From NCBI GenBank assembly GCA_003170475.1, contig PMZI01000046.1:51756-98389 (forward strand): 46,634 bases of DNA. The letters are read 5' to 3'. Below are positions 21,801-41,048 of this stretch, one piece after another. Both the position numbers and the translations under genes were made by a program. Numbering within the stretch: position 1 is the first letter of the stretch; each line of letters starts with the position of its first letter. Below the pieces are notes generated by a model that did not search any database, was not told the DNA's origin, and saw only the letters and a list, made by a program, of their open reading frames with translations. This DNA comes from Ignavibacteriota bacterium. Lineage in GTDB: Bacteria; Bacteroidota; Ignavibacteria; UBA10030.

Positions 21801-24800
21801 CTCAATTCACGATAGCTGAACAAATCCAACGGCCGGGTGGGGAACCGCTTGATGGCCTGACGCGATTGCCCGTCTTTGAGGCCATTGATGTTCAGATTCA
21901 GCGATTGTTCGTTGAGAAGAATCACCTGATCCGGTTGATTGGGGTCGCGCAACCGGGGAAGCGGCGAGATGTAGTCGGGGTTGTCTTCAATATTTACGAC
22001 GCTGATGCGGAATGTGCTGTCGTTTTTGACTAATTCTTCCCACTGATTGCCGACAAGATTGAACTCCGCAATCCGCAACATCGTTTCGTCCTGCGCTCCC
22101 GACACCCACACGCGCATTGCTTCCACGGTGCCGAATGTTGGATCTCCGACCGTCCGTTTGTATTCATTGAGAGGAATGCGAATTTGAAACCATCCCTTGT
22201 TTCCGCCCACCAGGTAGTGCCGGAAGTCCAAGCTCATCGTATCAAGCGAAAACTCATACTCGAAGTAACTGTTCGCCCGGTCAAGCACGTTGTTGCGATT
22301 CAGATCCTCGGTGTCAGGGAACCGGCCGACATCGCTCGCCGCGTTTCCTTCAGTGCCGTTGATCGAGTTATAATCAGACCATGTCAACGAAGTGGTCGAT
22401 GGGCGTGACCAGTCGTCCCCTGCCGGGTCAGCTGAATACTGAGGATACTTCAGAACAAAATCCGCATGCGCCTGTCGCTCCTGGTCATCCGAGAGACCAT
22501 CGAGGCCGACATCTTCCCCCTGACGCAGAATTCCATTGACAATGCCGCCATCGAGGCCGTCTTCCGTGTTAAGCTTGTTATCAGGGACCACGTCTTCACT
22601 AATGAGCCCGAGGTCAATAGTGAATTTGGCCGTTGGTTGCACTTTTGGTAGATTGATCCACAATTCAATGAAATTGATATTCTCGTCGAGCAGATTAGAG
22701 GCAGTGGAACCAATCAGTCGCTGGATTCCGGACCAGGCGTTTTGCGGATGCGACCAGAGTTTGCCTTCGAGATCCAGAGAATAGTTATACGGCGCCCGCT
22801 CCTTCGGCCTGAACCACAAATTCATGACTGTCACCGCCTCATTTCCCGCCGCCACTTGCTTCTTTGGCCAGATGTCGGTCACAACAACATCTCCCGGAGG
22901 GAAGTTGAACCAGACAAGTTTTGCCTTGTACTCCATCTTGTCGAGAGCCGTCAGCTTGAAAGGATCATCCAATCCGGCGATGTAATCGGGTACGCTGGCG
23001 TTACTCCATCCGCCGTAATTCACACCAAGAGGTATGGTGCGACGCGCTCCTTCGAAATCATCGATATACGCGACCGACGCTCCCGCGTCGATAGGGATGG
23101 GACTCGTTCTCGTGTTGGGATTCGGAGACATGTACGCAGCTTCGCCTTTGACCATGATGCTCGAGGGAACGTTCGTCTGTATGCCCGGCAGCCAGTTGAG
23201 AGCCCGAGTCACAAAATCAAGATTCTGCGTCGTACCGCCGTCGATGCCATAGATGGTATTACTGATCGGCTCTTCCCCAAGCCGGATCTTGTCGCTCAAC
23301 GATTGCTGACTCAGGTTCATAAGAGTCAGGCCGAGGGACGAGTTCTTCCCCAGATCGATCTCCGCCCGGGCGCCGAGCAGTGACTTGGATGCTAATTGCA
23401 GCAGGTCATTCGCCTCGTATTCAATAGAGAGGTTCCTCCCCGGAGCGAGCAGAGCCTGGTTCTTGACCGTCACCTGGCCGGAGATGTAGTCCACGGAATA
23501 GTCTGTGTTGAGCTGCGCAGGATTGCCGTCAACCACTACCTTGACGCTTCCCTCAACAACGTTGAATCCGATAGAGTACGTCGAGGCGATCGAGGATGTG
23601 ATCGATCCGCGGATAATGAATTTGTTCCGCTGGCTGTTGGAGGCGCCATTGAACGTCGTGTCGTACACCTCCGCGAAGATGAACGAATCGGCGTCTGCTA
23701 TCGTCCGGCCCTTGGAAAGGAAATACCGACGGATACCCTCACGGAACGGCTCCGTCCGAGGGAAGATGAGTTCACCGCGGGACTCGTCGATCGTCAGCCC
23801 TGGGGAGTAATCGAACTTGCCGTCAGGAGGAGATCCGGATGTTTCCCCAAACCGATCGAGGCTGAGCATCTCCAAAAGATTGAATGCGCCGAGGATGTTG
23901 TCCTGAGGATCTTTTCCCGGCACTTCGTACAGGATTTTCAGATCGAAGCCGTCCTTCTTGATCCCTCGCCCTCCTAGGGGATAGATATTTTTGAGCATCA
24001 TCCGCCATGCTGCGGAAAACTGTGGCCCCAGTTTCTGAGGACGGACGAGTTTCATCACGAGTTTGAGTGACCGCGAAGTGTCGCGCGAACCGAAATTCCC
24101 GATATCCATCGGTTTCCGGGGATCGATCGTGTCAGGCACGGTGTAGGCAACAGCGATGGCCTGTTCCGGTTGAAGCGACCGGTTCAAGGTGATGTAGCCG
24201 GCGTAGGCGTGATAGGTGTAGTCCATTGCTGGATCCAACCGGATGAAACGCCCCACCTCCACTTCTCCGGGAACCATATCATAGTCCCGCGCGCGGGCAG
24301 ACTGATCTATCTGTGTGTGGAGCACCCGGTTCTGATCGAGAAAGGCCACAACGTCGCGCTCGTTCGGATCCTCGTTGCCGATACGAGTAACCCAAACCTC
24401 CATGTCCCTTATTTGTTTGCTGCTGTTTACTTTGGGAGGGTTGTAGAGAAACGACGAATCGAACCACGCAATGTACGTGGTATCGATGAAATAGTGATCG
24501 TGTGAATAGTCCGTCGCCCGTTTCTCGAATGGCGATGGACGTCCGCCGCCGGAGACCGCGAGCGCTTTGATCTGGCCTTTCTTCTGGGAAGCAACCGTTG
24601 TCAGTTTCAAAGGACCGAACTGAAATCCCGCCTTGACGCCAAAGAGCGCCGAACTGCTGGAGATGAATGATGAATTCGTCACAAGAGAGACGTTTCCAGC
24701 TTCCACACTCTGAATAATATCGTCGTCATAGCCCTTGTAGTTCACCTTGAGCTGGTTTTCGTACTCAAATGTCCGCTGTGTATTCCAGTCAGCGTTGATG

Positions 24801-25708
24801 TTGAGTTTGTCTCCGATCGTCCCTTTGACGTTGACCTGCACTTCCTGGCTGAAATCAGGCTCACTGCGGCTCTGACCCAGAGGATTGTTCACAAACAGAT
24901 CGGACGTTGTATTTCGAAATGCTCCATGAATGTTGACGGCACCGTTGATACTGAGAAGGATCTTGTTCGGTCCAAAGATGCTGAAGAGTGGGTTCTTGGG
25001 AACAGGTATTTCGATATTCGTGACCGACCCAAAGAGGTCCCCAAGGCCTTTCTTCTTATCCGATCCCAGTTGATAGGCATGCGCTGCGTCCTCCCAATTC
25101 TTCTGAAGATACTGCTTCAGCCGAACTTTGCGGTACTCGTCGAGTGACAGATCGAGCGGAACCCGCGTGTCGGATGTGCCGAGAAGCCTTCGGACATGAT
25201 AGACAAACCTTGTAGAGTCGAGGGTCTGCTGGGTGCGAACGGTGTAGGGATCCGGCAGGTACATCGGATGTGTCGGCTCCTGCGAAAGATCCACCGTAGG
25301 AGCATCGCGACGCACATGGCCGAAGTGGAGCAAACGGGCAGATGAGTCGCGCGGCAATGCTTTGATGGCCTCAAGGATTTTTGCCGCGGACTTTACGGTC
25401 GAAGTGTCGACAGTGGCCCGCTTCTGCAAAAGGGCCCGCGCCCGTCGGGAAAGAACTCCTGTTGAAAGTCGCTTGGTCGTATCCTGAAATGCAATGAGGT
25501 CTGAGAATGGCGAGTTGGGTTTCCCCTCATCGACGACGCGGCCTTCCGAAGGCTCGGAGAGCGAGAAATCCCCTGCGCCGGGGCTTGGCTCGGCGAATGA
25601 ACGATCTTTGGGGAATAGGAACGAGACGAGAAAGGCAAAGCAGAAGAAGATGGCCGCTGTTGCGCCCACCACTCTCCCTATGGCCGAACTACGCCCTTTC
25701 GACGTCAT
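18836..25708 (-). CDS. sprA: SprA/Sov: T9SS outer-membrane translocon
   Basis: Giant outer-membrane beta-barrel that forms the channel of the type IX secretion system. About 2290 residues is typical (roughly 2400 in Flavobacterium). A hydrophobic N-terminal signal segment (AAIFFCFAFLVSFLF) is followed by periplasmic plug-like regions and many amphipathic strands. Family-like stretches include NINADWNTQRTFEYENQLK, SIEYEANDLLQLASKSLLG, and YIDDFEGARRTIPLG near residue 925. The C-terminus is strand-rich. The frame is open to a GTG at 25738, but ATG 25708 has GGAG at the right distance. The porX gene lies on the same strand, two genes downstream, so the locus pairs channel and regulator. Confidence 0.93.
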   Translation of the reverse strand: MTSKGRSSAIGRVVGATAAIFFCFAFLVSFLFPKDRSFAEPSPGAGDFSLSEPSEGRVVDEGKPNSPFSDLIAFQDTTKRLSTGVLSRRARALLQKRATVDTSTVKSAAKILEAIKALPRDSSARLLHFGHVRRDAPTVDLSQEPTHPMYLPDPYTVRTQQTLDSTRFVYHVRRLLGTSDTRVPLDLSLDEYRKVRLKQYLQKNWEDAAHAYQLGSDKKKGLGDLFGSVTNIEIPVPKNPLFSIFGPNKILLSINGAVNIHGAFRNTTSDLFVNNPLGQSRSEPDFSQEVQVNVKGTIGDKLNINADWNTQRTFEYENQLKVNYKGYDDDIIQSVEAGNVSLVTNSSFISSSSALFGVKAGFQFGPLKLTTVASQKKGQIKALAVSGGGRPSPFEKRATDYSHDHYFIDTTYIAWFDSSFLYNPPKVNSSKQIRDMEVWVTRIGNEDPNERDVVAFLDQNRVLHTQIDQSARARDYDMVPGEVEVGRFIRLDPAMDYTYHAYAGYITLNRSLQPEQAIAVAYTVPDTIDPRKPMDIGNFGSRDTSRSLKLVMKLVRPQKLGPQFSAAWRMMLKNIYPLGGRGIKKDGFDLKILYEVPGKDPQDNILGAFNLLEMLSLDRFGETSGSPPDGKFDYSPGLTIDESRGELIFPRTEPFREGIRRYFLSKGRTIADADSFIFAEVYDTTFNGASNSQRNKFIIRGSITSSIASTYSIGFNVVEGSVKVVVDGNPAQLNTDYSVDYISGQVTVKNQALLAPGRNLSIEYEANDLLQLASKSLLGARAEIDLGKNSSLGLTLMNLSQQSLSDKIRLGEEPISNTIYGIDGGTTQNLDFVTRALNWLPGIQTNVPSSIMVKGEAAYMSPNPNTRTSPIPIDAGASVAYIDDFEGARRTIPLGVNYGGWSNASVPDYIAGLDDPFKLTALDKMEYKAKLVWFNFPPGDVVVTDIWPKKQVAAGNEAVTVMNLWFRPKERAPYNYSLDLEGKLWSHPQNAWSGIQRLIGSTASNLLDENINFIELWINLPKVQPTAKFTIDLGLISEDVVPDNKLNTEDGLDGGIVNGILRQGEDVGLDGLSDDQERQAHADFVLKYPQYSADPAGDDWSRPSTTSLTWSDYNSINGTEGNAASDVGRFPDTEDLNRNNVLDRANSYFEYEFSLDTMSLDFRHYLVGGNKGWFQIRIPLNEYKRTVGDPTFGTVEAMRVWVSGAQDETMLRIAEFNLVGNQWEELVKNDSTFRISVVNIEDNPDYISPLPRLRDPNQPDQVILLNEQSLNLNINGLKDGQSRQAIKRFPTRPLDLFSYRELRMFVHGDERLGTQIHYVDTTNYDLELFLRFGIDSLNYYEYRAPIHPGWDPNNINIIFGEITAIKLGRDSTGVSARVPTSNGPPGSTYQVVGQPTLTNIGMIVVGVVNPERKGATVVTSDVWVDELRLTDVDNTPGWAYRVDAQIKLADVANVSFNLTQRDPNFHSLEDRFGTRMQDRNWSLAANVNFERFLPQSWNGSSLAFSYSRSEQIQSPKYLPGTDILVTQAAQRTVDLQQQAGVSAAEAQKAGQDVTLSSQTLNVTETYSLPNVRLLIPVNSWLITETINKLQFAYSFTQTTRRSPVTEMFDQWQWNARLGYALNFSDKNYISPMAWIGDFFLFRPWKDLKIYFTPRAFSVSSTISRGQTMEQSRDQIDPKPTVRNFVATRSMNFNWQFVDGGLLNLGTEYALDVQSTLLDFELDQFGRQRTFTEIISEMLGKAKLIDFGTDLAYGQTINFNPRILVPATYKLDRMVGISLRYSARYDWQNNLQAGELGKNAGNSGNLTGTFDINLRNIGNEIWSSNPMSQSAAPPDTTHTGRPFNVWENIDLVTRYVFKIPFFDFEKLGISFTQSNRSQNSGVIGRPGFANIFGRVPFFQSSLPENGPSLMYQLGLSSDPSGDVIMKAKPGFPFFEGFSTPGIRAPNGNLTDMYSQSNRLTMRTSRPLWEGANLEINWNLGWSYNVNRTIQSDSLGFTTESNKVVSGDIDRSFLSFPAFPIFKFLNTSIVEVQRRYAMARDNPDDVRTDDAKIADAFESGLEALPFGKKIFGDIFPRPNWTLRWDGIEKLWLFSSFASRISFDHSYSSGYKMRWHTDPSGTQVTESQQATYGFAPLIGLNITFKQMAKGNFTASFRYGLTTSYDLTPSNQNIVQADRTEISLSAQYTRQGFEIPFFGLALSNDIDVSVTYGYTKDARRVYDLKADPFNPSGTPLEGQNQTRIEPRIRYILSSRVTATVYYKYTKLAPDQGGSRIPGSTTNEGGLDIRVAIQP

Positions 25709-25870
25709 CGAACTCCGTAACTCGCTACCGTGTTTCACGCCGCTCTACGAGATGTCACTGTTTAAGAAACCGAGAACCCATTCTCGAGGAATCAATGCAT
25801 TGGTATGGTAGCGAATTGCTCGATAACGCTCCGGCAGTTGAGAGATATGTTGAAACGAACAGCTTCAAAA

Positions 25871-25924: not shown

Positions 25925-28900
25925 TCACGTTTTGCCGCTCTGTTCGCCTGCGACGAAGTTGTTGATCGCGTCACCGATGCGACCAAGAATGACATTGGGA
26001 ACATACGGCTTTTGGACAAAGTCTACCGCCCCTTCATTCACCATCTGAAGACGCAGGTCCGGGTCGAAATACCCACTTGCCAGGATGCAGCGTACTTTCG
26101 GATTCATCTCCTTCATTTGCCGGAATACCTCCCAGCCGCCGAGTTTTGGCAATCCCATGTCCGACAACACGATACTGATTCCGTCTCCGAATTGTCTGTA
26201 AATGTCCACCGCTTCCTGGCCGTCATGTGCGGTTAATACTCTATAGCCATGTTCCTGCAACAGTGTCTCAAGAAGATCGAGGAGCATCTCTTCGTCCTCA
26301 ACCAAGAGGACGGTCTGTCCTGCGCCACGAGCCGGTTCCTTCTGTGATCTGTCCAGCTCAACCGGTTCGTCGACCGGTTGCACGGGGAAATAGAGTGAGA
26401 TGGATGTCCCTTTGCCGCGGGCGCTCTCAACATCGACAAAACCCTGATGTCCATTGACCACGCCGTAGACAACAGCGAGCCCGAGCCCGGTCCCTTTGCC
26501 TTGAGGCTTTGTGGTGAAGAATGGTTCAAAGATTCGCCCCTTCGTCGACTCATCCATTCCTGTTCCCGTGTCACGCACACAAATCAGGACATAGTGATTC
26601 TCTTTCGCATTGGGGAAGCGCTCAAGCAAATCATCTCCGGCAACGACATGCGACTCGATAGTGACCGTGCCCCCGACTCTTTCAAAGGTCTCCTGTTCTG
26701 CAATCGCGTCGCGTGCATTGATGCAGAGGTTCAGCACAGCCTGCTGCAGCTGTCCAACGTCAGCGAGGAGAAGCGGAAGATTGTCGCTCAGGATGAGTTC
26801 AAAACGAATATTCGGCGGAAATGTCTCAGAGAGAAGCTTCGTGAATTCCCGAAGCACATCATTCACCCTGACCGCTTCGAACACGCCGCTCGTCTTCCTG
26901 GCAAATGTCAGCAATTGCTGAACCAGCCCCGTCCCACGCGCAAGAGCCTTTCGGATCGAATCCACCGTATGGGCCTTAACCTCATGCGAAACCTCAGGAC
27001 CTTCCAATCGAGCGAGATAGCCTACGGCGATGGAGAGAATATTATTGAAGTCATGAGCGATTCCACCGGCAAGCGTCCCGACACTCTCCATCCTTTGAAC
27101 CTGTCGCAACTGATCTTCGAGTCGGCGCTGCTCGGTGACATCCCGCAGTATACCTCGATAGGCAATGACTTCCCCTACCATACCCCGAACAGCCGTTGTG
27201 GTCTCGAGGACGACCAACGCACGACCGTCCTTGGTCCTGGCAATGGTCTGGTAGTCTTTAATATAGCCTTCCTGATCAAGTAATCGGTGGGCCTTTTCCC
27301 GATCCGAAGGATCGGCGTAGAGTTCGCTGGAAATTTCAGCGCTCAGAAGCTCTTCTTTGCTCGAATAGCCGAAGAGATCGACGCCCGCCTGATTGATATC
27401 AAGGAACCTTCCGCTGGGCGTACTGATGAAGACCACATCCTTGGATTCTTCAAAGAGGGTCCTGTACTTCTCCTCGGACGCGCGAATGCGCTCCTCGGAT
27501 CTGACACGCTGTGTGGCATCGAGAAACGCCCATACTTTTCCAACGGTCTTTCCGCCGACACGCTGCGGTTTCGAATACCGCTCGATCACCCTCCCGTCGG
27601 TCAGTCTGACGACGTCAAAACTCTCGACCTCGGGCTGGGCATAGGCTCTTTTGATGGTGGCCAGAAATGACTCTCTGTCTTCAACCTCCTCTACCATGAA
27701 GTTGACAACCTCCTTCTCACCGCGAGCCATGAGGAGTTCCTGCGGTATGCCCCACATGTTCACGACCCGCTGATTGTAGTTCAGCAATCTTCCGTTCAGA
27801 TCGACAACCATGATCGATGACGGTGTCGCCTCGAAGGTCGCACGCAAGACTGAAAGAGATTGTTCCAGTTCTTCTTCTCCCCGCTTGCGGGCGGTGATAT
27901 CCTCCACAATGCGCAAACCGTACAACGGAGCGCCGTCAGCCTCTCTCACCACAGACGCCGTCAGGAGGCCCCAGATGACATCTCCTCTCTTCGTCATGAA
28001 CCGTTTCTCCGTACGGTAGGTGGCGATCTCGCCGCTGAGCAGCAACTGCAAGCGTTCAATGTCCTTCCGAACGTCTTCAGGATGCGTCACTCCGTCGATG
28101 GTGAGGCGACGCAATTCTGTCTCGGGATATCCCACCATTGCACAAAACGCGTTGTTCACCTTGATGATCTCGCCATGCAAGGTCACCATCATCATTCCGA
28201 CAGGTCCCTCTTCAAAAACCTTTCGGAATTGCTCAACACTGGTGCGAAGCGTTTGCTCAACCCGCACGCGCTCAGACTCGTCAATGACGAATCCCTGGAT
28301 CTGGATCAGTTCGTCCTGCTCGTTGAATTCGGCGCTGATATTGCCCACAACGTACACCGGCGCGTCGTCTTTTCGCCTCATCACCATCTGATAATTGCTG
28401 AGGCTCCGATGCATTCGAAGGATCTCCAGGAAATTCTCGTACGCCCGCTCACTTTCGTAGAGACGAAGGCCGTCAGAATTCATGATCTCGAACACTGAGG
28501 TGTACCCGAACATTTTTGCGAAGGAAGGATTGCAGGCAAGGACGCGTCCATCGGGAGTGGCAATGAAATCACCGGCAAGATCTTCTTCAAAGAACTTCCG
28601 GTACCTTTTTTCGCTGTCCTCCAACGCCTGGGTGATGATGCGTTGCTCATCCTCAATGCGTTGCCGTTCCGTGATATCGATAACCACGCGGTTGACGCGG
28701 TAGAACCCGAAGAGGAGCAGGACGAGTCCTACGATCTGGCCGACATAGCTGGCGACAAGACTGATAAACGCGGTGGTGCTGTCTGAGGATGTCTCGAAGA
28801 GAAATCCGCTTCCGAAAAACGATCGAAGGATCAAGTCGATCATGAAGAGCGAAAATCCGGTACCGATGAGTACCAGCGCGGGGAGCAAAATGCCCTTCAG

Positions 28901-28975
28901 GCGTCTTGCAGTGTAGAAGAATGCAATGATCGCGAGCGCAAGAAGCAGTAGTCTCGCAGTGCCAAAGAGGTCCAC
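25925..28975 (-). CDS. Membrane hybrid histidine kinase with four PAS domains and a receiver
   Basis: A 1016-residue sensor kinase. Three hydrophobic helices (about residues 4-22, 28-50, 69-93) are followed by four tandem PAS/PAC units (about 124-235, 249-365, 378-490, 506-624). The HisKA domain carries the phospho-His in GGIAHDFNNIL. The ATPase domain has N-box NLCINARDAI, DTGTGMDEST and GKGTGLGLAVVYG. A C-terminal receiver (about 888-1010) has VEDEE, phospho-Asp in VLSDMGLPKLGG, and QKPY. The HDFNN phosphobox type is common in hybrid kinases. The start is GTG at 28975 with AGGA 7 nt upstream. The sensed signal is unknown. It precedes sprA by about 216 bp. Confidence 0.93.
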   Translation of the reverse strand: MDLFGTARLLLLALAIIAFFYTARRLKGILLPALVLIGTGFSLFMIDLILRSFFGSGFLFETSSDSTTAFISLVASYVGQIVGLVLLLFGFYRVNRVVIDITERQRIEDEQRIITQALEDSEKRYRKFFEEDLAGDFIATPDGRVLACNPSFAKMFGYTSVFEIMNSDGLRLYESERAYENFLEILRMHRSLSNYQMVMRRKDDAPVYVVGNISAEFNEQDELIQIQGFVIDESERVRVEQTLRTSVEQFRKVFEEGPVGMMMVTLHGEIIKVNNAFCAMVGYPETELRRLTIDGVTHPEDVRKDIERLQLLLSGEIATYRTEKRFMTKRGDVIWGLLTASVVREADGAPLYGLRIVEDITARKRGEEELEQSLSVLRATFEATPSSIMVVDLNGRLLNYNQRVVNMWGIPQELLMARGEKEVVNFMVEEVEDRESFLATIKRAYAQPEVESFDVVRLTDGRVIERYSKPQRVGGKTVGKVWAFLDATQRVRSEERIRASEEKYRTLFEESKDVVFISTPSGRFLDINQAGVDLFGYSSKEELLSAEISSELYADPSDREKAHRLLDQEGYIKDYQTIARTKDGRALVVLETTTAVRGMVGEVIAYRGILRDVTEQRRLEDQLRQVQRMESVGTLAGGIAHDFNNILSIAVGYLARLEGPEVSHEVKAHTVDSIRKALARGTGLVQQLLTFARKTSGVFEAVRVNDVLREFTKLLSETFPPNIRFELILSDNLPLLLADVGQLQQAVLNLCINARDAIAEQETFERVGGTVTIESHVVAGDDLLERFPNAKENHYVLICVRDTGTGMDESTKGRIFEPFFTTKPQGKGTGLGLAVVYGVVNGHQGFVDVESARGKGTSISLYFPVQPVDEPVELDRSQKEPARGAGQTVLLVEDEEMLLDLLETLLQEHGYRVLTAHDGQEAVDIYRQFGDGISIVLSDMGLPKLGGWEVFRQMKEMNPKVRCILASGYFDPDLRLQMVNEGAVDFVQKPYVPNVILGRIGDAINNFVAGEQSGKT

Positions 28976-32360: not shown

Positions 32361-33563
32361 TCAGGCCAGTATTGCGATGACCTTGTCCTGGAGAGGCTGC
32401 CCCGGCACAATGACCTCCTTGTTCTTCGAAATGTAGACATCGATCTCGCTTCTCACGCCGAACTTGCCGGGCAGATAGATTCCCGGTTCGATCGAGAACG
32501 AAGTCCGCGGGATAATCCTGCGTTCATCGCGTGTTTCGAGATTGTCGATGTTGGCTCCGTTGCCATGGATCTCTTCGCCGATGGAATGTCCGGTACGATG
32601 CACAAAGTACTGGTCGTATCCTTTGTCCTTGAAGAAATTTCGCGCAGCGTCGTCAATCTGGTATCCGCAGATCTCTTTGCCCGCCTTAAACGCCTCCTGC
32701 ACATAACGAAGCGCCGCATCGCGTCCGCCTTTTACGATTTCGAAGATTTTCGTGTACTCCTCTGGTACCGTCTCGCCAATGAATCCGGTCCAGGTAATAT
32801 CCCCGTACACCGAATGCGGTTTGTCCGTCTTTGCCCAAAGGTCCAGCAGGACAAAATCCCCCTTCTTCAGCGGGCTATGGATTTCTTTTGTCGGCTCGTA
32901 ATGTGGATTGGCGCTATTGGCGTTCACCGAACAGTTGGGGTCGCTCTCTGTTGTGATGCTGCGCTTCTTGAACTCAGAAAGCATGAACTGCTGGACATCG
33001 TATTCATGGAGCGGCGTATTCGAGAGAATGTGCTGTTTGATGAATCCAAAGGTGAGGTCGACAATCTGGCGAAGATGTTTCGCCGTCACCATGTTGTCTT
33101 CCGCCTGCTCATCGTTCCATGTCGCTTCGAAACGCGAGACGAGGTTTGCAGAGGAAACTACTTCCAGCCCCTGGCTCCGGACGAGCTCAATCGTTCCACC
33201 ATCGACGTTGGACACATACGGGATGTTGCTCATCGGGGAATATTCCATCGCCACTTTTTTTGCGCCGCCGACAATCTTCTTCACTCCTTCGCGCAAAGAT
33301 TGCCAACTGACATACAGCGTCTTCTCACCCGGCAGGCTGTCGAGATTCCATTGCTCGATATTATGGACGAGCTTCTGGGCAGTCCCCTGTGCCGGAATGT
33401 AGTAGAAATACCGGCGAGTCTGCATGATGTGCGTAGGAAGGTTCAGGATGCGCGTTGCAAAAACGTTGGAGCCTCGAAAATTGTAGAAGAGCCATCCGTC
33501 GATGTGTTCTTCCCGCAGTGCTTCCTGAATCATCTGGATTGTTTCTGGTCCGAGCGTTGCCAT
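32361..33563 (-). CDS. M24-family metallopeptidase (Xaa-Pro aminopeptidase-like)
   Basis: Probable cytoplasmic aminopeptidase of 400 residues with a creatinase N-terminal domain (about 1-160) and a pita-bread M24 domain (about 170-395). The five metal ligands are visible: Asp in LLDLWAK, Asp in YGDITWTG, His in HRTGHSIGEEIHG, Glu in SIEPGIYLPG, and Glu in GVRSEIDV. No signal peptide is seen. The start is ATG at 33563, with GGAGATG upstream. It lies beyond the terminator of the aminomutase operon, so it is transcribed separately. Its true substrate is unknown. Confidence 0.88.
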   Translation of the reverse strand: MATLGPETIQMIQEALREEHIDGWLFYNFRGSNVFATRILNLPTHIMQTRRYFYYIPAQGTAQKLVHNIEQWNLDSLPGEKTLYVSWQSLREGVKKIVGGAKKVAMEYSPMSNIPYVSNVDGGTIELVRSQGLEVVSSANLVSRFEATWNDEQAEDNMVTAKHLRQIVDLTFGFIKQHILSNTPLHEYDVQQFMLSEFKKRSITTESDPNCSVNANSANPHYEPTKEIHSPLKKGDFVLLDLWAKTDKPHSVYGDITWTGFIGETVPEEYTKIFEIVKGGRDAALRYVQEAFKAGKEICGYQIDDAARNFFKDKGYDQYFVHRTGHSIGEEIHGNGANIDNLETRDERRIIPRTSFSIEPGIYLPGKFGVRSEIDVYISKNKEVIVPGQPLQDKVIAILA

Positions 33564-33630
33564 GAAGTCATCTCCGTACGATAGGTTGATCCGTGTCCTG
33601 TCTGAAAGTTGGCGTGTCTTCTAATAAACG

Positions 33631-33666
33631 AAAAAAGCCCGCAGCTCTCAAGCGCGGGCTTTTTTT
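33631..33666 (-). terminator. Intrinsic terminator of the ATP-grasp/aminomutase operon
   Basis: Stem aaaaaagcccgc (33631-33642) against gcgggctttttt (33655-33666, approximate by one base) with a T-run on the minus strand, just after the aminomutase stop. The flanking A and T runs make it potentially bidirectional. Confidence 0.9.
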
Positions 33667-33683
33667 ACGTGAGTACAGCGCTG

Positions 33684-34844
33684 CTATTTGCCGACCGGCT
33701 CGAGTTCCCGTTTGGCGGGCTCGTTTGGAACCACCTTCTTTTCGGTCATCTTGCGGCGGCGCCGGTATTTCGTCTCGACGACCAGCTGTGGTTCGGGCTG
33801 TTCTTCTTCGACGTCCGGATAGGTGAAGATCTCATATTTGTAGTTGCGAAGGATAATATCTTTCCCGTTTCGTCCAAGGACGTACTGGGGCAGCAAAGGA
33901 ATCTTTCCCCCTCCTCCCGGCGCGTCGATAACGTAGTAGGGAATGGCAAGACCGGAGGTATGGCCGCGCAACTTATCCATGATCTCCAGCCCCTTGCTGA
34001 CCGGTGTGCGGAAGTGGTTTGTTCCTTTCGTCAAATCCGCCTGGTAAATATAGTACGGCCGAACACGCATCTTAAGAAGTTTGCGATGCAGGTCGAGCAT
34101 AATGTCGGCATCGTCGTTCACACCTTTCATCAACACAGCCTGATTGCCCACCGGGCAGCCGGCGTCTGCAAGCATCGCACACGCCTTTTCGGCCTCAGGA
34201 GTGCATTCCCATGGATGATTGAAGTGCGTGTTGACATAGATTGGATGGTACTTCTTCAGCATCTTGCAGAGCTTTGGCGTGATGCGTTGCGGAAGCACGC
34301 AGGGCATCTTGGTACCGAGCCGGATAATCTCAACGTGCGGAATCGCCCGCAGGCTTGCCAGAACGCGCTCCAAGACATAGTCGGTCACCATCAAGGGATC
34401 GCCGCCGGAGAGGACGACATCGCGTACCTCCGGATGTGCAGCGATATAGTCAACGCCGTCCTGAATCCACTTTGAGTTGATTTTCGTGGAGTCACTCACC
34501 TTGCGTTTCCGCGTACAGAACCGACAGTACATCGAGCACTGGCTCGTCACGAGGAACAAGACGCGATCCGGGTAGCGATGGGTGATGCTTGGCACCGGAC
34601 TGTCGGACTCTTCATTCAGCGGATCTTCGGGAGCATTGTGGTCTTCCAGCTCCACCGCATCAGGAATACACTGCAGCCAGATGGGATCGTTCGGGTAACG
34701 GATCAGGCTCAGGTAATACGGATTCACACGAATGTGAAAGAGCTTGTTGAGTTTTTCAGCCTGTTCTTTTTCGAATCCGAAGCGCTCAATGAGATCTTTG
34801 GCGCTATCCACACTCTGCCGCAACATCTCTTGCCAGAGTTCCAT
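33684..34844 (-). CDS. kamA: Lysine 2,3-aminomutase (radical SAM, PLP)
   Basis: Converts L-lysine to L-beta-lysine using a [4Fe-4S] cluster, SAM and PLP. The 386-residue protein has the radical-SAM motif CSMYCRFC (C103, C107, C110), the SGGDPL motif near residue 146 and the PLP lysine K314 in DAPGGGGK. The two Asp residues that hold the lysine side amine in the clostridial enzyme align with D270 and D307. This favours lysine over glutamate as substrate. The basic C-terminal tail is longer than usual. EpmB-type enzymes are shorter, and no EpmA is near. It is the last gene of the operon, 17 bp after the GNAT gene, and precedes the terminator. Confidence 0.93.
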   Translation of the reverse strand: MELWQEMLRQSVDSAKDLIERFGFEKEQAEKLNKLFHIRVNPYYLSLIRYPNDPIWLQCIPDAVELEDHNAPEDPLNEESDSPVPSITHRYPDRVLFLVTSQCSMYCRFCTRKRKVSDSTKINSKWIQDGVDYIAAHPEVRDVVLSGGDPLMVTDYVLERVLASLRAIPHVEIIRLGTKMPCVLPQRITPKLCKMLKKYHPIYVNTHFNHPWECTPEAEKACAMLADAGCPVGNQAVLMKGVNDDADIMLDLHRKLLKMRVRPYYIYQADLTKGTNHFRTPVSKGLEIMDKLRGHTSGLAIPYYVIDAPGGGGKIPLLPQYVLGRNGKDIILRNYKYEIFTYPDVEEEQPEPQLVVETKYRRRRKMTEKKVVPNEPAKRELEPVGK

Positions 34845-34861
34845 ACAGGTTGTTGTTCCTC

Positions 34862-35344
34862 CTAGATGTATTTGAAGTAGACAACGAGGCCGTCTCCCGG
34901 AGCGTAGTAATCTTCGATCCGTGATGCCTCGGTGTAGTGATGATGCTCGTAGAACAAACGCGTCTTGTTGTATTTCTCCATCGACGATGTTTCCGCGATG
35001 ATCAGTTTGCCTCCCTGTTGCCGAACGTATTCTTCACAGTGATGGAGCAACTGTTTCCCAACTCCCTTGCCATGGACTTGAGGATCGACCGCAATCCAGT
35101 ATAAATCATAGGTCGTTTCCGTCATCGGCGTATGCCCGACACAGTAGTACCCTCGGACCGTATTCTTCTCGTCGACATACGTCGCGATCACATAATCCTT
35201 CTGGTCTTCAACCTCAGCAACAATTTCCATCAGCTCACGAGCAACGGCAACTTCTTCTTCCCGAAACACCTGTGTCGCTTCTACCAGCGCAACCAGAGAT
35301 TGCAGATCCTCTTTTTGGAACGGTCGAATCGCCATAGCGCTCAT
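34862..35344 (-). CDS. GNAT-family N-acetyltransferase
   Basis: A 160-residue single-domain acyl-CoA transferase. The acetyl-CoA loop is VDPQVHGKGVGKQLL near residue 90, and ETSSMEKYNKTRLFYEHHHY gives the usual C-terminal motif B region. The ATG at 35344 overlaps the stop codon of the upstream ATP-grasp gene (TGATG), implying translational coupling. It is much shorter than AblB-type beta-lysine acetyltransferases and is not obviously one. Its position between the ATP-grasp genes and the aminomutase suggests it acylates an intermediate or product of this pathway (inference). Confidence 0.88.
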   Translation of the reverse strand: MSAMAIRPFQKEDLQSLVALVEATQVFREEEVAVARELMEIVAEVEDQKDYVIATYVDEKNTVRGYYCVGHTPMTETTYDLYWIAVDPQVHGKGVGKQLLHHCEEYVRQQGGKLIIAETSSMEKYNKTRLFYEHHHYTEASRIEDYYAPGDGLVVYFKYI

Positions 35345-36438
35345 CAGGGAGTACGCTCGAGAGCGTACTCGACAATTTTGTTGATGATCTGGTCGAACGT
35401 GAAGCCGTAGGCCCGGGCTGATCGGGCGAAGCCCGCATCATCGCTGATATCGGGATTCGGGTTAACTTCGATGACATAAAGATTATTGTTCTTGTCGAGC
35501 CGCATGTCGACGCGAGCATAGTCGCGGCATCCCATGATGCGGTAGCATTTGAGAGCGATCTCTTTCGCCTGCCGCTCGATCTCCTGTGGCACCGGTGCCG
35601 GACAGACTCCGACGGTACCCTTGTATTCGGTCGTCGCTTCCATCCACTTCGCGTTGTACGTTACGATGTGCGGGTAGTCTGCCGGCAATCCCGAGAAGTC
35701 TATCTCGGAAATGGGCAGTGGAATCGGACGCCGGTTTCCGATCACGGCGACATTGAGTTCGCGCCCTTCGATGTACTCGTCAACAATAGCAGGTTGATCG
35801 TAGCTCTGAAAAATTGTCCGCACGCGCTTCCGAAGTGCAGGAATGCTGTCCACAATCGAGCCATTGTCGATCCCTACGCTCGCATCTTCGAGAGATGGCT
35901 TGACGATGACCGGGAATCGAAGGTCGAATTCCTCCTCGTTGACTTCATTGGCGTTCTTATAAAGAGCGAATTTCGGGACCCGTATCTTGTGGAAACTCAG
36001 CACCTGCTTCGTTCTCGCCTTGTTCTGGCACATGCCAAGCGAAAACGCGCCGGCCCCCGTATAAGGAACTCCCAGCAACTCGTAAAGACCGGCCACAAAC
36101 ATTTCGTGCGTCGATTCATCTCCGACAGATTCGCACAGATTGAAAATCAGGTCCGGCTCTTTTTCCTCGATAAACTGAATCAGCCGCTTGATATCACTAT
36201 TCATATTGAACAGCGAAGTCTTGTACCCGTTCTTCTGCAAAGCTTCCGCTACGTGCGTTCGCTCTTCAAGCACTCCGACTTCTGAAAGATCCACCGCCGA
36301 GGGTTGAGTTCCCGAAATCACCTGGGCGCGCGTCACACCGGCTTCGATCTTCCCCGTTTCGGAGATGAACTTTCTGCCGGTCGTCGTCTCAACCGTCGGT
36401 TCGTTAAACACTACAGCAACATGGATCTTCTTGGCCAT
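35344..36438 (-). CDS. D-Ala-D-Ala-ligase-like ATP-grasp enzyme (second in operon)
   Basis: A 364-residue ligase-like enzyme that should activate a carboxylate as an acyl-phosphate and join it to an amine. The ATP-grasp core shows FNLCESVGDESTHE, GVPYTGAGAFSLGMCQNKARTK, PVIVKPSLEDASVG, VDEYIEGRELNVAV and the metal site YARVDMRLDKNN...VIEVNPNPDIS. Compared with Ddl the serine loop reads EDASVG rather than EGSS, and a long insertion of about 25 residues follows the first strand. These differences argue against a housekeeping Ddl. The start is ATG 36438 with GAGGAG upstream. It follows the first ATP-grasp gene by 12 bp. Confidence 0.88.
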   Translation of the reverse strand: MAKKIHVAVVFNEPTVETTTGRKFISETGKIEAGVTRAQVISGTQPSAVDLSEVGVLEERTHVAEALQKNGYKTSLFNMNSDIKRLIQFIEEKEPDLIFNLCESVGDESTHEMFVAGLYELLGVPYTGAGAFSLGMCQNKARTKQVLSFHKIRVPKFALYKNANEVNEEEFDLRFPVIVKPSLEDASVGIDNGSIVDSIPALRKRVRTIFQSYDQPAIVDEYIEGRELNVAVIGNRRPIPLPISEIDFSGLPADYPHIVTYNAKWMEATTEYKGTVGVCPAPVPQEIERQAKEIALKCYRIMGCRDYARVDMRLDKNNNLYVIEVNPNPDISDDAGFARSARAYGFTFDQIINKIVEYALERTP

Positions 36439-36450
36439 ACACTCCTCGCC

Positions 36451-37587
36451 CTAATGAACTCCGCCTGAAGCCTTCGCGCTCCCCGACTTACCGTTGTGCA
36501 TCCCGTACCGAAGAATCGCTTCATCCAATACGGCGTTCAGCATTGCGTTGTATGAGAGTCCAGCTCCGCGTGCTGCCATCGGAAAACTGGAATGATCATC
36601 CGGATTAGGCAAAATCCCCGGAAGTGGATTCAGCTCAATCACATTCGGGATACCGTTCTCGTCGAGTCGCAAATCGATCCGGCACCAATCGCGGCATCTC
36701 AAGACGCGAAATACATTTAGAGACGTCTCCTTGATGAGGCGTTCGAGATCGTGGTCAGTTTTCGCAGGACAGTCATACATTTCGACCGGATGTTCTATCT
36801 GATCCCACACCCATTTCGCTTCATAAGAATAGATGGGGTTGACTCCCGGTGGAAGTCTGTCCAGGCGAATTTCCACTATTGGGAACACCCTCAATGTCGG
36901 CCCATTTCCGAGAAGTGCAACGGTGAATTCTCGGCCGGGCAGGAACTTTTCAACAAGCGCAGGTTCGTTGTAGTCGGTGAGAACACGCTGCACCTGCTCA
37001 GTGAGTTCTGCCTGCGTACGAACAATCGACGAATTCAGAACCCCTTTGCTGGAGCCTTCATGCAGTGGCTTCACAACGGAGGGAAATGAAATGACGCGAC
37101 GATTCATTTCCTCGATGGAAGAGATCACATGAAATTCAGGGGTTGGAATTTTGTAATAGGAGAGAATTTCTTTCGCGCGCGCCTTATCAAGACAAATTCC
37201 GAGAGTCACAGGGTCGGAACCTGTGTACGGAATGCCAAGCATTTCCAGAACGGCAGGAATCTGCGCTTCTCGGGAGGGTCCTCTCAATCCTTCCGCGATA
37301 TTGAACACAATATCGGGTTGAACTTCGAGTAGCTGGTGGGGAGCGTGATCAGTCGCTTCGATCATCGTCACGCTGTGTCGCTCCGCCAGGGCCGCCTTCA
37401 CGGCGAGAATGGTTGCTTCACTATCCCATTCTGCGTATGTGTCGTGTCTCGTCTCTTGAAGTTTCGTTCGAGATGCTACTGCTACTCCACTCTCTTCAGT
37501 CTCTTCACTCCGAGGATGATTGGAAACATCATCCGCGTTTTCCTTCTTCATGTTATAGACGAGCGCGACATGCAATCGCGGTAACAA
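36451..37587 (-). CDS. D-Ala-D-Ala-ligase-like ATP-grasp enzyme (first in operon)
   Basis: A 378-residue ATP-grasp enzyme, paralogous to but clearly diverged from the next gene. Key stretches are HVALVYN at the N-terminus, DIVFNIAEGLRG, GIPYTGSDPVTLGICLDKARAK, SVVKPLHEGSSKGV, VEKFLPGREFTVALLG and CRIDLRLDENGIPNVIELNPLPG. It keeps the EGSS loop and the NPLPG metal site, so it should be active. The frame begins with TTG at 37587. A stop codon lies four codons upstream and no ATG precedes the conserved HVALVYN, so the start is TTG at 37587 or 37575. It is the first gene of the operon. Confidence 0.87.
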   Translation of the reverse strand: MLPRLHVALVYNMKKENADDVSNHPRSEETEESGVAVASRTKLQETRHDTYAEWDSEATILAVKAALAERHSVTMIEATDHAPHQLLEVQPDIVFNIAEGLRGPSREAQIPAVLEMLGIPYTGSDPVTLGICLDKARAKEILSYYKIPTPEFHVISSIEEMNRRVISFPSVVKPLHEGSSKGVLNSSIVRTQAELTEQVQRVLTDYNEPALVEKFLPGREFTVALLGNGPTLRVFPIVEIRLDRLPPGVNPIYSYEAKWVWDQIEHPVEMYDCPAKTDHDLERLIKETSLNVFRVLRCRDWCRIDLRLDENGIPNVIELNPLPGILPNPDDHSSFPMAARGAGLSYNAMLNAVLDEAILRYGMHNGKSGSAKASGGVH

Positions 37588-37891
37588 GCAGGTTGCTCAA
37601 CCTTTCAATTGTGGGAGGACGACCTATCAATGAACATCAAACGCTGATACAAATATAATGTTTTAATCGTCGTTGTCAAGTCTGAGAGCCTCTTTTCGCT
37701 CATCTTTCGCGTGTCATGACTTGACACGACTCGCGATCGGACGAGGGTGAGAGTGTCACCGCGAGGTCGCGCCGCGTCGCGGGAAGAACTTCAGAGGACA
37801 TTTCCGGAACACGTGACGATCGTCGGACAAAACGAACGAGAGGAACGAGCGACTGATGAAGGGGAAGGTCAACGACGACGGAAGATGCGAA
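37588..37891. other. Spacer of 304 bp between recG and the ATP-grasp operon
   Basis: The left part holds the promoter and about 55-nt leader of the ATP-grasp operon (37588-37679). The rest (37680-37891) lies beyond the recG stop and contains no supported gene. There are several GC-rich short repeats such as cgaggtcgcgccgcgtcgcg near 37760, but no clear terminator for recG. Confidence 0.6.
37650..37679 (-). promoter_or_regulatory. Promoter of the ATP-grasp/GNAT/aminomutase operon
   Basis: Minus strand TTGACA (37674-37679) and TATATT (37652-37657) with a 16-bp spacer. The -10 region also reads TATATTTG (37650-37657), which fits the Bacteroidetes -7 motif TAnnTTTG. Either reading starts transcription about 55 nt before the TTG start codon. 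Confidence 0.75.
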
Positions 37892-40108
37892 TCATCCAAC
37901 GCTACCAAGCGCGAACGCATCCTTGTAGCGTTGTTCGAAGTGTCGCCGCAGCGATTGATGGGCGACAGAGCGCAGCTGGGGATCACCATCGACGAGGTGA
38001 AAGGCCTCCGTTCGGGCAAGGACGATGAGCTCACCGTCCTCGAGGATGTTCGCAATCCTGAATTCCGGGATGCCGCTCTGCCGGACTCCAAAGAACTCAC
38101 CGGGTCCGCGCAACCGGAGGTCAACTTCTGCGATCTTGAACCCGTCCGCCGTCTGCACCATGGTCTCCAGACGGGTCCGGGCATTGAGCTTTTCCTTCTT
38201 CACTTCGCCGGACTCAAGCCCTTTGTGGTGTTCGTCGAACCAGCCATAGTTCGCAATCAGAATGCAGTAGGATTGATCAGCTCCACGGCCTACCCTCCCC
38301 CGCAATTGGTGAAGCTGTGAGAGTCCGAACCGTTCCGCGTTTTCGATGATCATGATTGCCGCATTGGGGACATCGATTCCAACCTCGATCACGGTCGTGG
38401 AGACGAGTATCTGAATCTCGCCCGCTTTGAAACGCGCCATGATTTCATCCTTCTCTTCGGACTTCATTCGCCCATGGAGAAGGCCCAATTGGTATTCGGG
38501 AAAAGTCGACGACCGCAGTTGCTCGAATTCCACCGTCGCTGCTTTTAAGTCAACTTTTTCCGATTCGTCAATCAGCGGAAAAACGATGTACACTTGCCGG
38601 CCGCGAGCGACCTCTTCCCTGACAAACTGATAGACCTTTCCCTTGTCAGCTTCCGTCCGCAATCCGGTCTTAATGGGTTTGCGGTTCGCCGGCATTTCAT
38701 CGATGACCGATACATCGAGATCGCCATAGACGGTAAGCGAGAGCGTGCGCGGGATTGGCGTCGCCGTCATGACGAGGACATCCGGATTAAATCCTTTCTC
38801 TCGCAGCGTAGCGCGCTGCAGAACGCCGAACCGGTGCTGTTCGTCAATCACCACGAAGCCCAATTTGCCGAAGGTGACGTTCTCTTCGATCAGCGCGTGC
38901 GTGCCAACAACGATGTTCGCCCGACCGTTGTGGATGTCCCCGAGGATGTCTTCGCGCAATTTCTTTTTCTGTCCGCCGATAAGAAGCCGAACGGTGACGG
39001 GCAGGTCTTTCAGATAGCCGTCCAACGTCCGAAAATGCTGCTCAGCGAGAATTTCCGTCGGGGCCATGAACGCCACTTGATACCCGTTGTCGATCGCAAC
39101 AAGCATCGCAAGCAGCGCGACGATCGTTTTTCCGCTGCCGACATCGCCCTGGAGAAGGCGATTCATCGGTTTCGACAATTTCATGTCACCGGCGATTTCG
39201 TTGACGACGCGACGTTGAGCCTTCGTCAAATCAAACGGCAAACGTTCGACCAGCGTTCGGGCTAAGGAGCTTTCGATGGAGTAGGTGATGCCTTTTTGTT
39301 CCTGGCCAATGCGACGTTTTCGATAGGCGAGCATCAACTGCAGAAAAAAGAGTTCATCAAATTTCAGACGCTTTCGGGCAGCGGCAAGATTTTCGCCGTG
39401 TAGCGGGAAATGGATCTGATCGAGCGCTGCGCCGAGCGGAAGCAGACCACAGCGCGATCGAATTTCCTCAGGAAGAATCTCTTCCACGCTGTTGAGATGA
39501 CTCTTCAACGCGTTTCGTATCACGCGCCGGAAACCGCGGCTGTCCAATCCCACATTTGTGAGGTCAGCGGAAGAGGAATACTTTGGAATAATCGCTCCCG
39601 TGTTGAAGAGCTTTCCCCAGTCGGGCTCATCCTCTTCTTCCGCTCCCTTCAGACGATCGAACTCCGGATGGGTGAACTGGATACGACCGAGCTTGTCAAA
39701 GTCGGGATACGCGGAGACGGCGAGCAATTCACCCTGCTCGAACGCATTTTTGTACCACTGGACACCCTGGAAAAAAACGCATGTCACGCTCCCCGTCTCA
39801 TCTTTGAGGGTCAGGAAAAACACCAGGCGGTTGGATCGTCGCGATCGACGCAGTTCCTGCCGGAAGACCTCTCCGATCACGGTGACGGGCTTCTCGGCGT
39901 CGACGTGCTTGCGGAGATCATGGATCTTCACAATACTGCTGCGATCGAGATAGTCGAAAGGGAAATAGTGTAACAATTCCTGGACGGAGTGGATGCCAAT
40001 CTGCTCGAGGGCGGCCGCCCGCTTGGGCCCGATACCCTTTACATATTGAAGAGGCGATCCTGCCTGAGGAGGGTTGCTCACAGATTTGGATGGTGGTTTT
40101 CGGTTCAC
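37892..40108 (-). CDS. recG: ATP-dependent DNA helicase RecG
   Basis: Helicase that remodels stalled forks and Holliday junctions. The 738-residue protein has the usual layout. An N-terminal HhH-like start (GIGPKRAAALEQIGI) precedes the OB wedge domain near residues 55-170. Helicase domain 1 has Walker A GDVGSGKT and the DEQHRFG box, followed by MTATPIPRTL. Helicase domain 2 has STTVIEVGIDVPNA and QLRGRVGRG. The C-terminus contains GPGEFFGVRQSG. The start is GTG at 40108. It follows the ABC membrane protein gene by 13 bp. Confidence 0.97.
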   Translation of the reverse strand: MNRKPPSKSVSNPPQAGSPLQYVKGIGPKRAAALEQIGIHSVQELLHYFPFDYLDRSSIVKIHDLRKHVDAEKPVTVIGEVFRQELRRSRRSNRLVFFLTLKDETGSVTCVFFQGVQWYKNAFEQGELLAVSAYPDFDKLGRIQFTHPEFDRLKGAEEEDEPDWGKLFNTGAIIPKYSSSADLTNVGLDSRGFRRVIRNALKSHLNSVEEILPEEIRSRCGLLPLGAALDQIHFPLHGENLAAARKRLKFDELFFLQLMLAYRKRRIGQEQKGITYSIESSLARTLVERLPFDLTKAQRRVVNEIAGDMKLSKPMNRLLQGDVGSGKTIVALLAMLVAIDNGYQVAFMAPTEILAEQHFRTLDGYLKDLPVTVRLLIGGQKKKLREDILGDIHNGRANIVVGTHALIEENVTFGKLGFVVIDEQHRFGVLQRATLREKGFNPDVLVMTATPIPRTLSLTVYGDLDVSVIDEMPANRKPIKTGLRTEADKGKVYQFVREEVARGRQVYIVFPLIDESEKVDLKAATVEFEQLRSSTFPEYQLGLLHGRMKSEEKDEIMARFKAGEIQILVSTTVIEVGIDVPNAAIMIIENAERFGLSQLHQLRGRVGRGADQSYCILIANYGWFDEHHKGLESGEVKKEKLNARTRLETMVQTADGFKIAEVDLRLRGPGEFFGVRQSGIPEFRIANILEDGELIVLARTEAFHLVDGDPQLRSVAHQSLRRHFEQRYKDAFALGSVG

Positions 40109-40121
40109 GTGCTCACGAGTA

Positions 40122-41048
40122 CTACGGTGTGCTCAATTTGGTAGATGGCAACGTTTCTTTCTCCGGTTCTTCGGTGCTTTCTTTGAGTCTTTGGGAGATA
40201 TCCTCGAGCGACGTCCAATTCTCCATCAGCTGCGGCATGTATTCGGATGTTGAAATGAACGTCCAGATGTAGGCAACGATGGAATAGATGGCCCCGGTGC
40301 TGAAATCGTCCAGGTCGATGGCAATGAACAGGACTGCAACGAAAATCGCGAGCAGCGCCACCCGCATGACACCAAAATTCAGCGCCCCCCAGTTCGCGAT
40401 TTTCTGTTTGAGAACCGTCGCCCTGCCATAGTAGGCCTTTACCTCGTCTTGACTCTGCCGGGCGAAGACGTCAAATGTTGTTTCGTAGTTGTCATGATAC
40501 TCTTTTTGCAGAGAACTGACTTTTCTGGTGTAGACGCGGGCGATTTGCACGAGGGGGAGTATAATCGTCAAGCAAGCCACGGAAATTCGCCAGTCGAATG
40601 CCGCGAGCGCAATCACGGCGCCGCCGATCGAAATAATCTGTTCGACAATCTCCGGCATGCTGTATTGAAGAAAACTGATGTACTGCTCGGACAGCTGCGC
40701 TCGCGCGACCGTCTTGGAGACCGCGGTCTTTCTCTTCCGGCCACTGGAGGCAATCCCTGTAGCAATCTCTGAATAGATGCGAAGATAGATTCGCTCGTCG
40801 ACGATACGACGAACTACTCCTGTACCGGAGTTGACCAAAAAGACGAGAATCCAAAGGAACAATGGAAACACATCAAGCGATTTCAGGCTGGGACCGTCTG
40901 AACTCACTCGTTCGATGAGCGCGTCGATCACCTTTCCGAACACTGCCGGCTCGATGATCCATGCCACCTGTTCGAGAACGACCAGCGAAAGGGCGATGAG
41001 GATCCCCTTCCGGTACCGAGCCGCCAGTTCGAACAATTTGATCTTCAT
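40122..41048 (-). CDS. ABC-exporter-type transmembrane domain without an ATPase
   Basis: A 308-residue protein with the six-helix fold of ABC type I exporters (ABC_membrane). Recognisable parts are the long helices around FGKVIDALIERV, the intracellular-loop stretch VRRIVDERIYLRIYSEIATG, SIGGAVIALAAFDWRISVACL, and QDEVKAYYGR. Normally a nucleotide-binding domain follows this, but here the protein ends about 30 residues after the last helix with a charged tail (SQRLKESTEEPEKE). No Walker A, signature or Walker B motif exists in the gene or adjacent DNA. It may pair with a separate ATPase or act without one. GAGGTG precedes the ATG. Confidence 0.8.
   Translation of the reverse strand: MKIKLFELAARYRKGILIALSLVVLEQVAWIIEPAVFGKVIDALIERVSSDGPSLKSLDVFPLFLWILVFLVNSGTGVVRRIVDERIYLRIYSEIATGIASSGRKRKTAVSKTVARAQLSEQYISFLQYSMPEIVEQIISIGGAVIALAAFDWRISVACLTIILPLVQIARVYTRKVSSLQKEYHDNYETTFDVFARQSQDEVKAYYGRATVLKQKIANWGALNFGVMRVALLAIFVAVLFIAIDLDDFSTGAIYSIVAYIWTFISTSEYMPQLMENWTSLEDISQRLKESTEEPEKETLPSTKLSTP

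Follow-up and report, generated by a model that had tools for sequence, protein, structure and literature searches.

What does a bacterium make with a lysine 2,3-aminomutase encoded next to an acetyltransferase and two ATP-grasp ligases? This question is raised by a block of four genes in an Ignavibacteriota bacterium (assembly GCA_003170475.1, contig PMZI01000046.1), of which we analysed a stretch of 46,634 nucleotides, hereafter called the window. The genes encode two diverged ligases of the D-Ala-D-Ala ligase (Ddl) type, LigA and LigB, a GNAT N-acetyltransferase and the radical SAM aminomutase KamA. β-Lysine is mainly known from acetyl-β-lysine osmolytes, the modification of elongation factor P (EF-P), lysine fermentation and some antibiotics, and the first-pass annotation of the window had proposed that this block makes an acylated pseudopeptide or conjugate containing β-lysine. 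We found that the four genes are, almost beyond doubt, one functional unit, because their order is conserved, their presence and absence are shared and they are retained when unlinked. The product is probably an acetylated β-lysine conjugate, that is, a cytosolic N-acetylated β-lysine pseudopeptide.

The order of the genes is conserved well beyond this genome. A LigB match with an E-value below 1e-80 was present in 57 of 61 relatives, and three of the other four are less than 85% complete (a tally of 59 of 61 includes weaker Ddl matches). From loci L057–L187 we collected 79 LigA-LigB tandem pairs, dropped two identical copies and excluded four of the remaining 77 that had less than 1,200 bp downstream, which left 73 loci; one species may enter this count twice where its copies differ slightly between collections. 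KamA followed the ligases on the same strand in 72 of the 73 loci and GNAT in 69, the exception for KamA being L183, where it lies upstream of the ligases and GNAT stands further down. In L098 the two ligases look fused, but the reading crosses a gap in the assembly, and this locus was not scored as a fusion. The scan of named genomes comprised the best 80 loci, in records with titles of the Ignavibacteria, Kryptonia, Melioribacter, Bacteroidetes/Bacteroidota or "uncultured bacterium" type, and phyla outside this one were covered solely via the plasmid collection. Since the same order recurs in other genomes of the class, the block represents more than a chance arrangement, and its genes are conserved together, as the first-pass annotation required for its reading to hold.

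The genes also share their presence and absence. Among 245 genomes of the class with a completeness of at least 90%, searches with the LigA and KamA profiles at E 1e-105 detected LigA in 163 and KamA in 173; comparison of the two lists gave 162 genomes with both, one with LigA only (G105), 11 with KamA only and 71 with neither. KamA was found at 1e-100 in none of 21 hand-picked class or order genomes without LigB, the weaker matches in this set being those of G248 (1e-45) and G123 (1e-22). When 32 hand-chosen genomes were searched with the GNAT profile (E 1e-10), all 14 taken to have both ligases were positive and none of the 18 others, which include G209 with a solo LigB paralogue, G389, and the LigA-KamA variants G063 and G432. 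Because presence and absence are shared, we regard the functional link as strong enough to act on.

Moreover, in three families of the same phylum (f40, f25 and f52) KamA, LigA, LigB and GNAT are unlinked yet retained, with KamA 56–64% identical; in G178 the four genes lie on four separate contigs. The scattered LigA was read directly in three genomes (L151, L153 and L180), for most other scattered genomes both ligases were taken from two LigB-profile matches, and the KamA search in this set left out G318, G382 and G434. Operon and scattered KamA formed one clade in the tree (100/98), which by sequence is separate from the four AblA rows compared. LigB, its solo paralogue LigC and six scattered LigB likewise formed one clade (100/95), and a weak branch (79/92) of the ligase tree held both the operon LigA (93/66) and the scattered LigA (100/99).

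Within the window, the layout described by the first-pass annotation was found again: a gap of 12 bp between LigA and LigB, a 1-bp overlap (TGATG) between LigB and GNAT and a gap of 17 bp between GNAT and KamA. The family assignments of the four proteins were likewise confirmed by profile and structure-database matches. By eye, AGGAG precedes LigB and AGGAGG precedes KamA. Both signals said to bound the block were found. The terminator scan matched the hairpin on both strands (33653-33637 on the minus and 33643-33660 on the plus strand), although the region overall had five matches against 4.7 expected from shuffling and thus no excess. The promoter site by itself represents weak evidence because the promoter scan gave five sites in the region against a mean of 2.6 in shuffled sequences. 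Repeats in the region were short and chance-like only, and its base composition bore no sign of a recent insert.

Table 1. The four-gene block of the window, its candidate signals and flanking genes
Feature	Position in window	Strand	Remarks
LigA, ATP-grasp ligase of D-Ala-D-Ala-ligase type	36451..37587	-	TTG start; Pfam PF07478, E 6.9e-34
LigB, second diverged ATP-grasp ligase	35344..36438	-	Pfam PF07478, E 1.3e-35
GNAT N-acetyltransferase	34862..35344	-	Pfam Acetyltransf_7/_1
KamA, radical SAM lysine 2,3-aminomutase	33684..34844	-	PDB 2a5h, E 3.6e-124; TIGR03820, 476.9 bits
Sigma-70-like promoter TTGACA-16-TATATT	37652..37679	-	11/12 consensus matches
Intrinsic terminator, hairpin and U-tract	33631..33666	-	-25.5 kcal/mol, z -3.2 (fold of 33625-33690)
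RecG	37892-40108	-	upstream of block
M24 peptidase	32361-33563		downstream of block, past terminator

KamA was aligned over 347 residues with PDB entry 2a5h, the lysine 2,3-aminomutase of Clostridium subterminale; the residue roles and the numbering (Asp293, Asp330) follow that enzyme. The radical SAM motif CSMYCRFC and the motif DAPGGGGK, whose lysine is presumably the one that binds pyridoxal phosphate, are kept, as are the carboxylate arginine and both aspartates that hold the lysine side chain. The claim that both aspartates are retained was thus confirmed, for the window and also for every operon KamA in which the lysine-binding residues are readable. In addition, KamA scored best with the lysine model, above the glutamate, arginine and EpmB models, and it is the sole match to TIGR03820 in its genome. 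Lysine fermentation was considered as a context and set aside: a search of the genome for BKACE (PF05853) at E 0.001 was negative, other steps of that route not having been searched for. In two further loci (L185:6780-8715 and L186:6511-8575) a LigA-like gene is directly followed by a KamA with Gln at the first lysine aspartate; for the L186 enzyme arginine 2,3-aminomutase was the best model, below its cut-off, and this gene pair could possibly make another β-amino-acid conjugate.

The ligases carry the signatures EGSS and ENPLPG (LigA) and EDAS and NPNPD (LigB), and both fall below the cut-offs of the Ddl and Van models examined. With TIGR01205 (cut-off 245.65) they scored 142.9 and 142.7 bits, and a separate gene of this genome, C25, passes with 305.9 bits. 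Plain Ddl identity was therefore rejected for the operon ligases, C25 being the Ddl of the cell, and in these sequence tests the two did not behave as the ordinary Ddl paralogues that the first-pass annotation had named as an outcome contrary to its reading. Residues were mapped in DdlB numbering over 52 LigA and 51 LigB sequences, the LigB set being drawn from the scan of named contigs plus the window, with the substrate residues as assigned for DdlB. All 52 LigA keep Lys97, Lys144, Glu148-Ser151, Glu180, Glu187, Lys215, Arg255, Asp257, Glu270, Asn272, Gly276 and Ser281, and 50 keep Tyr210; the changes relative to Ddl are Tyr216 to Trp in all and Leu282 to Cys in 48. Eight residues separate the equivalents of Gly276 and Ser281 in the window LigA compared with four in DdlB, and the longer spacing recurs in the LigA family consensus and in three scattered LigA. 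LigB has intact ATP and metal residues. Gly149 and Gly276 are replaced by Asp in 51 of 51 LigB, Ser150 by Ala in 49, Tyr210 by Val or Ile, Tyr216 by Trp and Leu282 by Gly, and Ser281 is present in just five. Among the positions Ser150, Tyr216, Arg255, Gly276 and Ser281, LigA keeps four and LigB keeps Arg255. NPNPD was found in all 22 operon LigB rows, including those of other families, and six scattered LigB retain EDAS and NPNPD, the metal residue before NPNPD being Asp, not Glu. The equivalent of Ddl Glu15 may be Glu53 in both ligases. The residue mapping and the tree thus agree with the earlier statement that the two ligases are unlike each other.

Structure prediction, suggested by the first-pass annotation as a check, gave AlphaFold2 (AF2) models with predicted local distance difference test (pLDDT) scores of 85.1 for LigA and 88.3 for LigB, confident outside the N-terminal loop and some shorter stretches. 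The nearest solved folds of both models were Ddl enzymes, and the top 50 for LigA were all Ddl- or Van-type ligases. The shared fold and Pfam domain, together with the Ddl substrate residues that LigA mostly keeps, could mean that the two serve peptidoglycan synthesis as additional D-Ala-D-Ala (or D-Ala-X) ligases, with KamA and GNAT forming a separate lysine side pathway in the same operon. However, a Ddl above the cut-off is encoded elsewhere, and ligases, GNAT and KamA tend to co-occur even when unlinked; we consider this explanation highly improbable. As a separate observation, the third, solo LigB paralogue in the LigB clade, LigC (L119:7056-9065, L113, L115 and L137), is encoded in divergent orientation next to a protein of 279 aa that matches peptidase C39 weakly (a cluster of 27 loci), and a cluster of isochorismatase-domain proteins is present in 16 loci.

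LigB also matched the RimK ATP-grasp model above its cut-off (E 5.9e-12), far below its Ddl match. This raised the idea that the ATP-grasp enzymes attach β-lysine or a β-lysyl peptide to a protein, as EpmA and EpmB do on EF-P and RimK does on S6, the building block made by KamA being of the same type as that of EpmB. The EF-P of this genome has the tip TPGNLRAF, with Asn and not Lys, and the best match to genX/EpmA, below the cut-off, is lysyl-tRNA synthetase, so β-lysylation of EF-P was rejected. The type of the tip showed no relation to the operon, Lys being found in four of 16 operon-bearing and four of 14 operon-less genomes (second EF-P copies of G055, G248 and G340 were left out). As the nearest folds of both ligases are moreover Ddl enzymes, protein modification appears very unlikely.

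The GNAT family has one close solved relative, PDB 2r7h, annotated as "Putative D-alanine N-acetyltransferase" and presumably from a Desulfovibrio, which its profile matched with an E-value of 1.2e-44 compared with 1.9e-7 for the runner-up. AblB was rejected as the identity of this GNAT, since a search of the 96.29%-complete genome with TIGR03827 gave nothing at E 0.001. GNAT look-alikes were matched in seven plasmid records, and the four stretches examined contained no homologue of LigA, LigB or KamA at E 1e-4.

These results bear on the possibility that the block is a variant osmolyte pathway, in which KamA and GNAT make acetyl-β-lysine and the ligases lengthen it, in the manner of Ngg, into a compatible solute that is a di- or tripeptide. 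Precedents exist: the AblA/AblB route leads to acetyl-β-lysine by a lysine 2,3-aminomutase and an acetyltransferase (PMC12776343), and N-acetylglutaminylglutamine amide (NAGGN) is described as a dipeptide osmoprotectant (PMC8070244). The enzyme families of the block are also of the soluble type. However, the GNAT is not AblB, and it scored 14.6 bits with the Ngg model (TIGR03103) against a cut-off of 569. Rfam gave no match at the gathering score in 33000-38500, hence the known Na+ riboswitch is absent from that interval, and the isolate names of related records suggest lake, groundwater, fen and soil samples, which would fit poorly with a role in salt tolerance only. An osmolyte of this kind is therefore conceivable but rather unlikely.

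The variant locus L183 (4257-9795, genome G429 of family f7) has the order KamA-LigA-LigB-GNAT-GNAT, with the first GNAT fused to a histone-deacetylase domain and the reading of LigA ending in an assembly gap. This fusion raises the idea that the acetyl is a temporary protecting group: GNAT would block one lysine amine so that the ligases join the correct nitrogen, and a deacetylase would take the group off afterwards. The union of the fused protein and a second GNAT in one operon favours such a scheme, but the deacetylase was seen at one locus, with the neighbours elsewhere annotated in part, and we regard it as doubtful.

The reading that we prefer, an N-acetylated β-lysine pseudopeptide, would proceed as follows. 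Judging from its family and residues, KamA would convert L-lysine to β-lysine. LigA, in which the ATP/metal site is kept along with most of the donor and acceptor residues of Ddl, would couple two amino-acid units via an acyl phosphate; its four extra residues adjoin the acceptor-carboxylate serine. LigB would form a second amide bond and probably takes the basic β-lysine unit or another lysine-derived amine, a basic substrate being suggested by the new conserved Asp at two substrate-site positions. GNAT would acetylate an amine, either on an intermediate or on the finished compound. This compound would be small and soluble; the cell would synthesise it in the cytosol and probably retain it there, as a solute or in a cofactor-like role. 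The enzyme families and the gene linkage expected of ATP-grasp plus GNAT pseudopeptide pathways are both present, and from these sequences we infer the substrates, the order of steps, the product and the role of the pathway.

Several points weigh against this interpretation. Eleven of the 245 genomes have KamA but no LigA; six of these belong to family f57, with scores of about 1e-120, G389 has a canonical AblA with AblB adjoining, G429 carries the variant operon L183, and the assemblies of G513 and G519 are split into about 630 and 470 contigs, but G542 (1e-148) is an unaccounted exception. The "without" genomes G389, G063 and G432 hold weaker LigA- or LigB-like matches (two in G389, the best 7.2e-59), and the counts overstate the number of independent events because the genomes share ancestry. 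Three of the 73 loci (L061, L062 and L064) have no GNAT within 1,200 bp, a span that covers the surroundings of the ligases only. KamA scored 476.9 bits with TIGR03820 (AblA), below the cut-off of 525.4. The ligase tree cannot separate LigA from Ddl, because E. coli DdlB, whose branch is very long, is placed on the side of LigA. The variant LigB of L183 does not retain both aspartates, two solo copies in f15 have NPNPN, and the two aspartates are no proof of a basic substrate. The Glu15 equivalent was placed solely via predicted helices, at an alignment column that is unreliable, and the substrates of the ligases and GNAT are predicted from sequence.

The surroundings of the block were annotated in part: some neighbour clusters were named by Pfam, and the GpsA-, PlsY-, IspD- and DnaG-like ones by eye. 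RecG-type ORFs were present in 49 of 118 loci, in many of them upstream. Among the annotated part of the neighbours no secretion or envelope context was seen near the block, although an ABC-transporter membrane-domain protein (ABC_membrane_3, 308 aa, 40122-41048 on the minus strand, no ATPase-domain match) is located upstream of RecG in the window; proteins that cluster with it stand upstream of RecG in three further loci. The loci without a nearby GNAT (L061:7521-9735, L062 and L064) encode a protein that matches DUF3109/CxxCxxCC weakly, and a GyrI-like small-molecule-binding protein is encoded inside the gene block of L061 and, by position, of L062. Farther away in the window there is a very long ORF of 2300 aa (18836-25738, minus strand) with an adjoining ORF of 1016 aa on the same strand (25925-28975). 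PADLOC defence models matched none of the four block proteins at E 1e-5.

It could be, at a little less than even odds, that an undescribed β-lysine-based metabolite is made via two dedicated ATP-grasp ligases throughout the class and in a related lineage of its phylum, as a core compound that is cofactor-like or generally protective, and that the pathway is old, its genes having been scattered yet kept in one lineage. If so, the co-occurrence of LigA and KamA in 162 of 245 class genomes would mark a further use of β-lysine and a widespread metabolite that has so far escaped notice. The four-gene unit is small and amenable to testing in E. coli. In agreement with the earlier statement that no named pathway has this gene set, no description of it was found in the open-access literature searched; the search did not extend to subscription papers, above all the 2009 amidoligase survey, which is the main gap as regards novelty.

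Several known systems resemble the block in part. Iyer, Aravind and colleagues reportedly predicted in their 2009 amidoligase catalogue that ATP-grasp enzymes encoded beside GNATs make peptide-like metabolites. The AblA/AblB pair resembles the block in combining an aminomutase with a GNAT and in the lysine-binding residues of KamA, and the class also includes a genome with a canonical pair (G389, L184). However, the operon KamA falls outside the four AblA rows and does not reach the AblA cut-off, its GNAT is a protein other than AblB, and two ATP-grasp ligases are added. The NAGGN pathway (Ngg, AsnO and a peptidase) similarly joins N-acetylation with ATP-dependent peptide bond formation on free amino acids, whereas the operon has separate genes, two Ddl-type ligases and an enzyme supplying a β-amino acid. 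With Ddl, both ligases share the fold and the ATP/metal site, and LigA most of the substrate residues; they differ in the Trp at Tyr216 of both, in the altered substrate sites of LigB and in missing the Ddl cut-offs. On the conjugative plasmid pTHIMO01 of Thioflavicoccus mobilis a Lig-like ATP-grasp gene also lies beside a KamA gene, but there is one ligase, 2,3-diaminopropionate and diaminobutyrate genes are present, no GNAT is annotated nearby and KamA is outside the operon clade. That gene group (L190:3557-9038), with a diaminobutyrate transaminase, SbnA, an ornithine cyclodeaminase-type gene, the ATP-grasp ligase and the divergent KamA, is likely a cluster for a diamino-acid metabolite. 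The chemistry proposed for the four-gene unit is assembled from known enzyme families.

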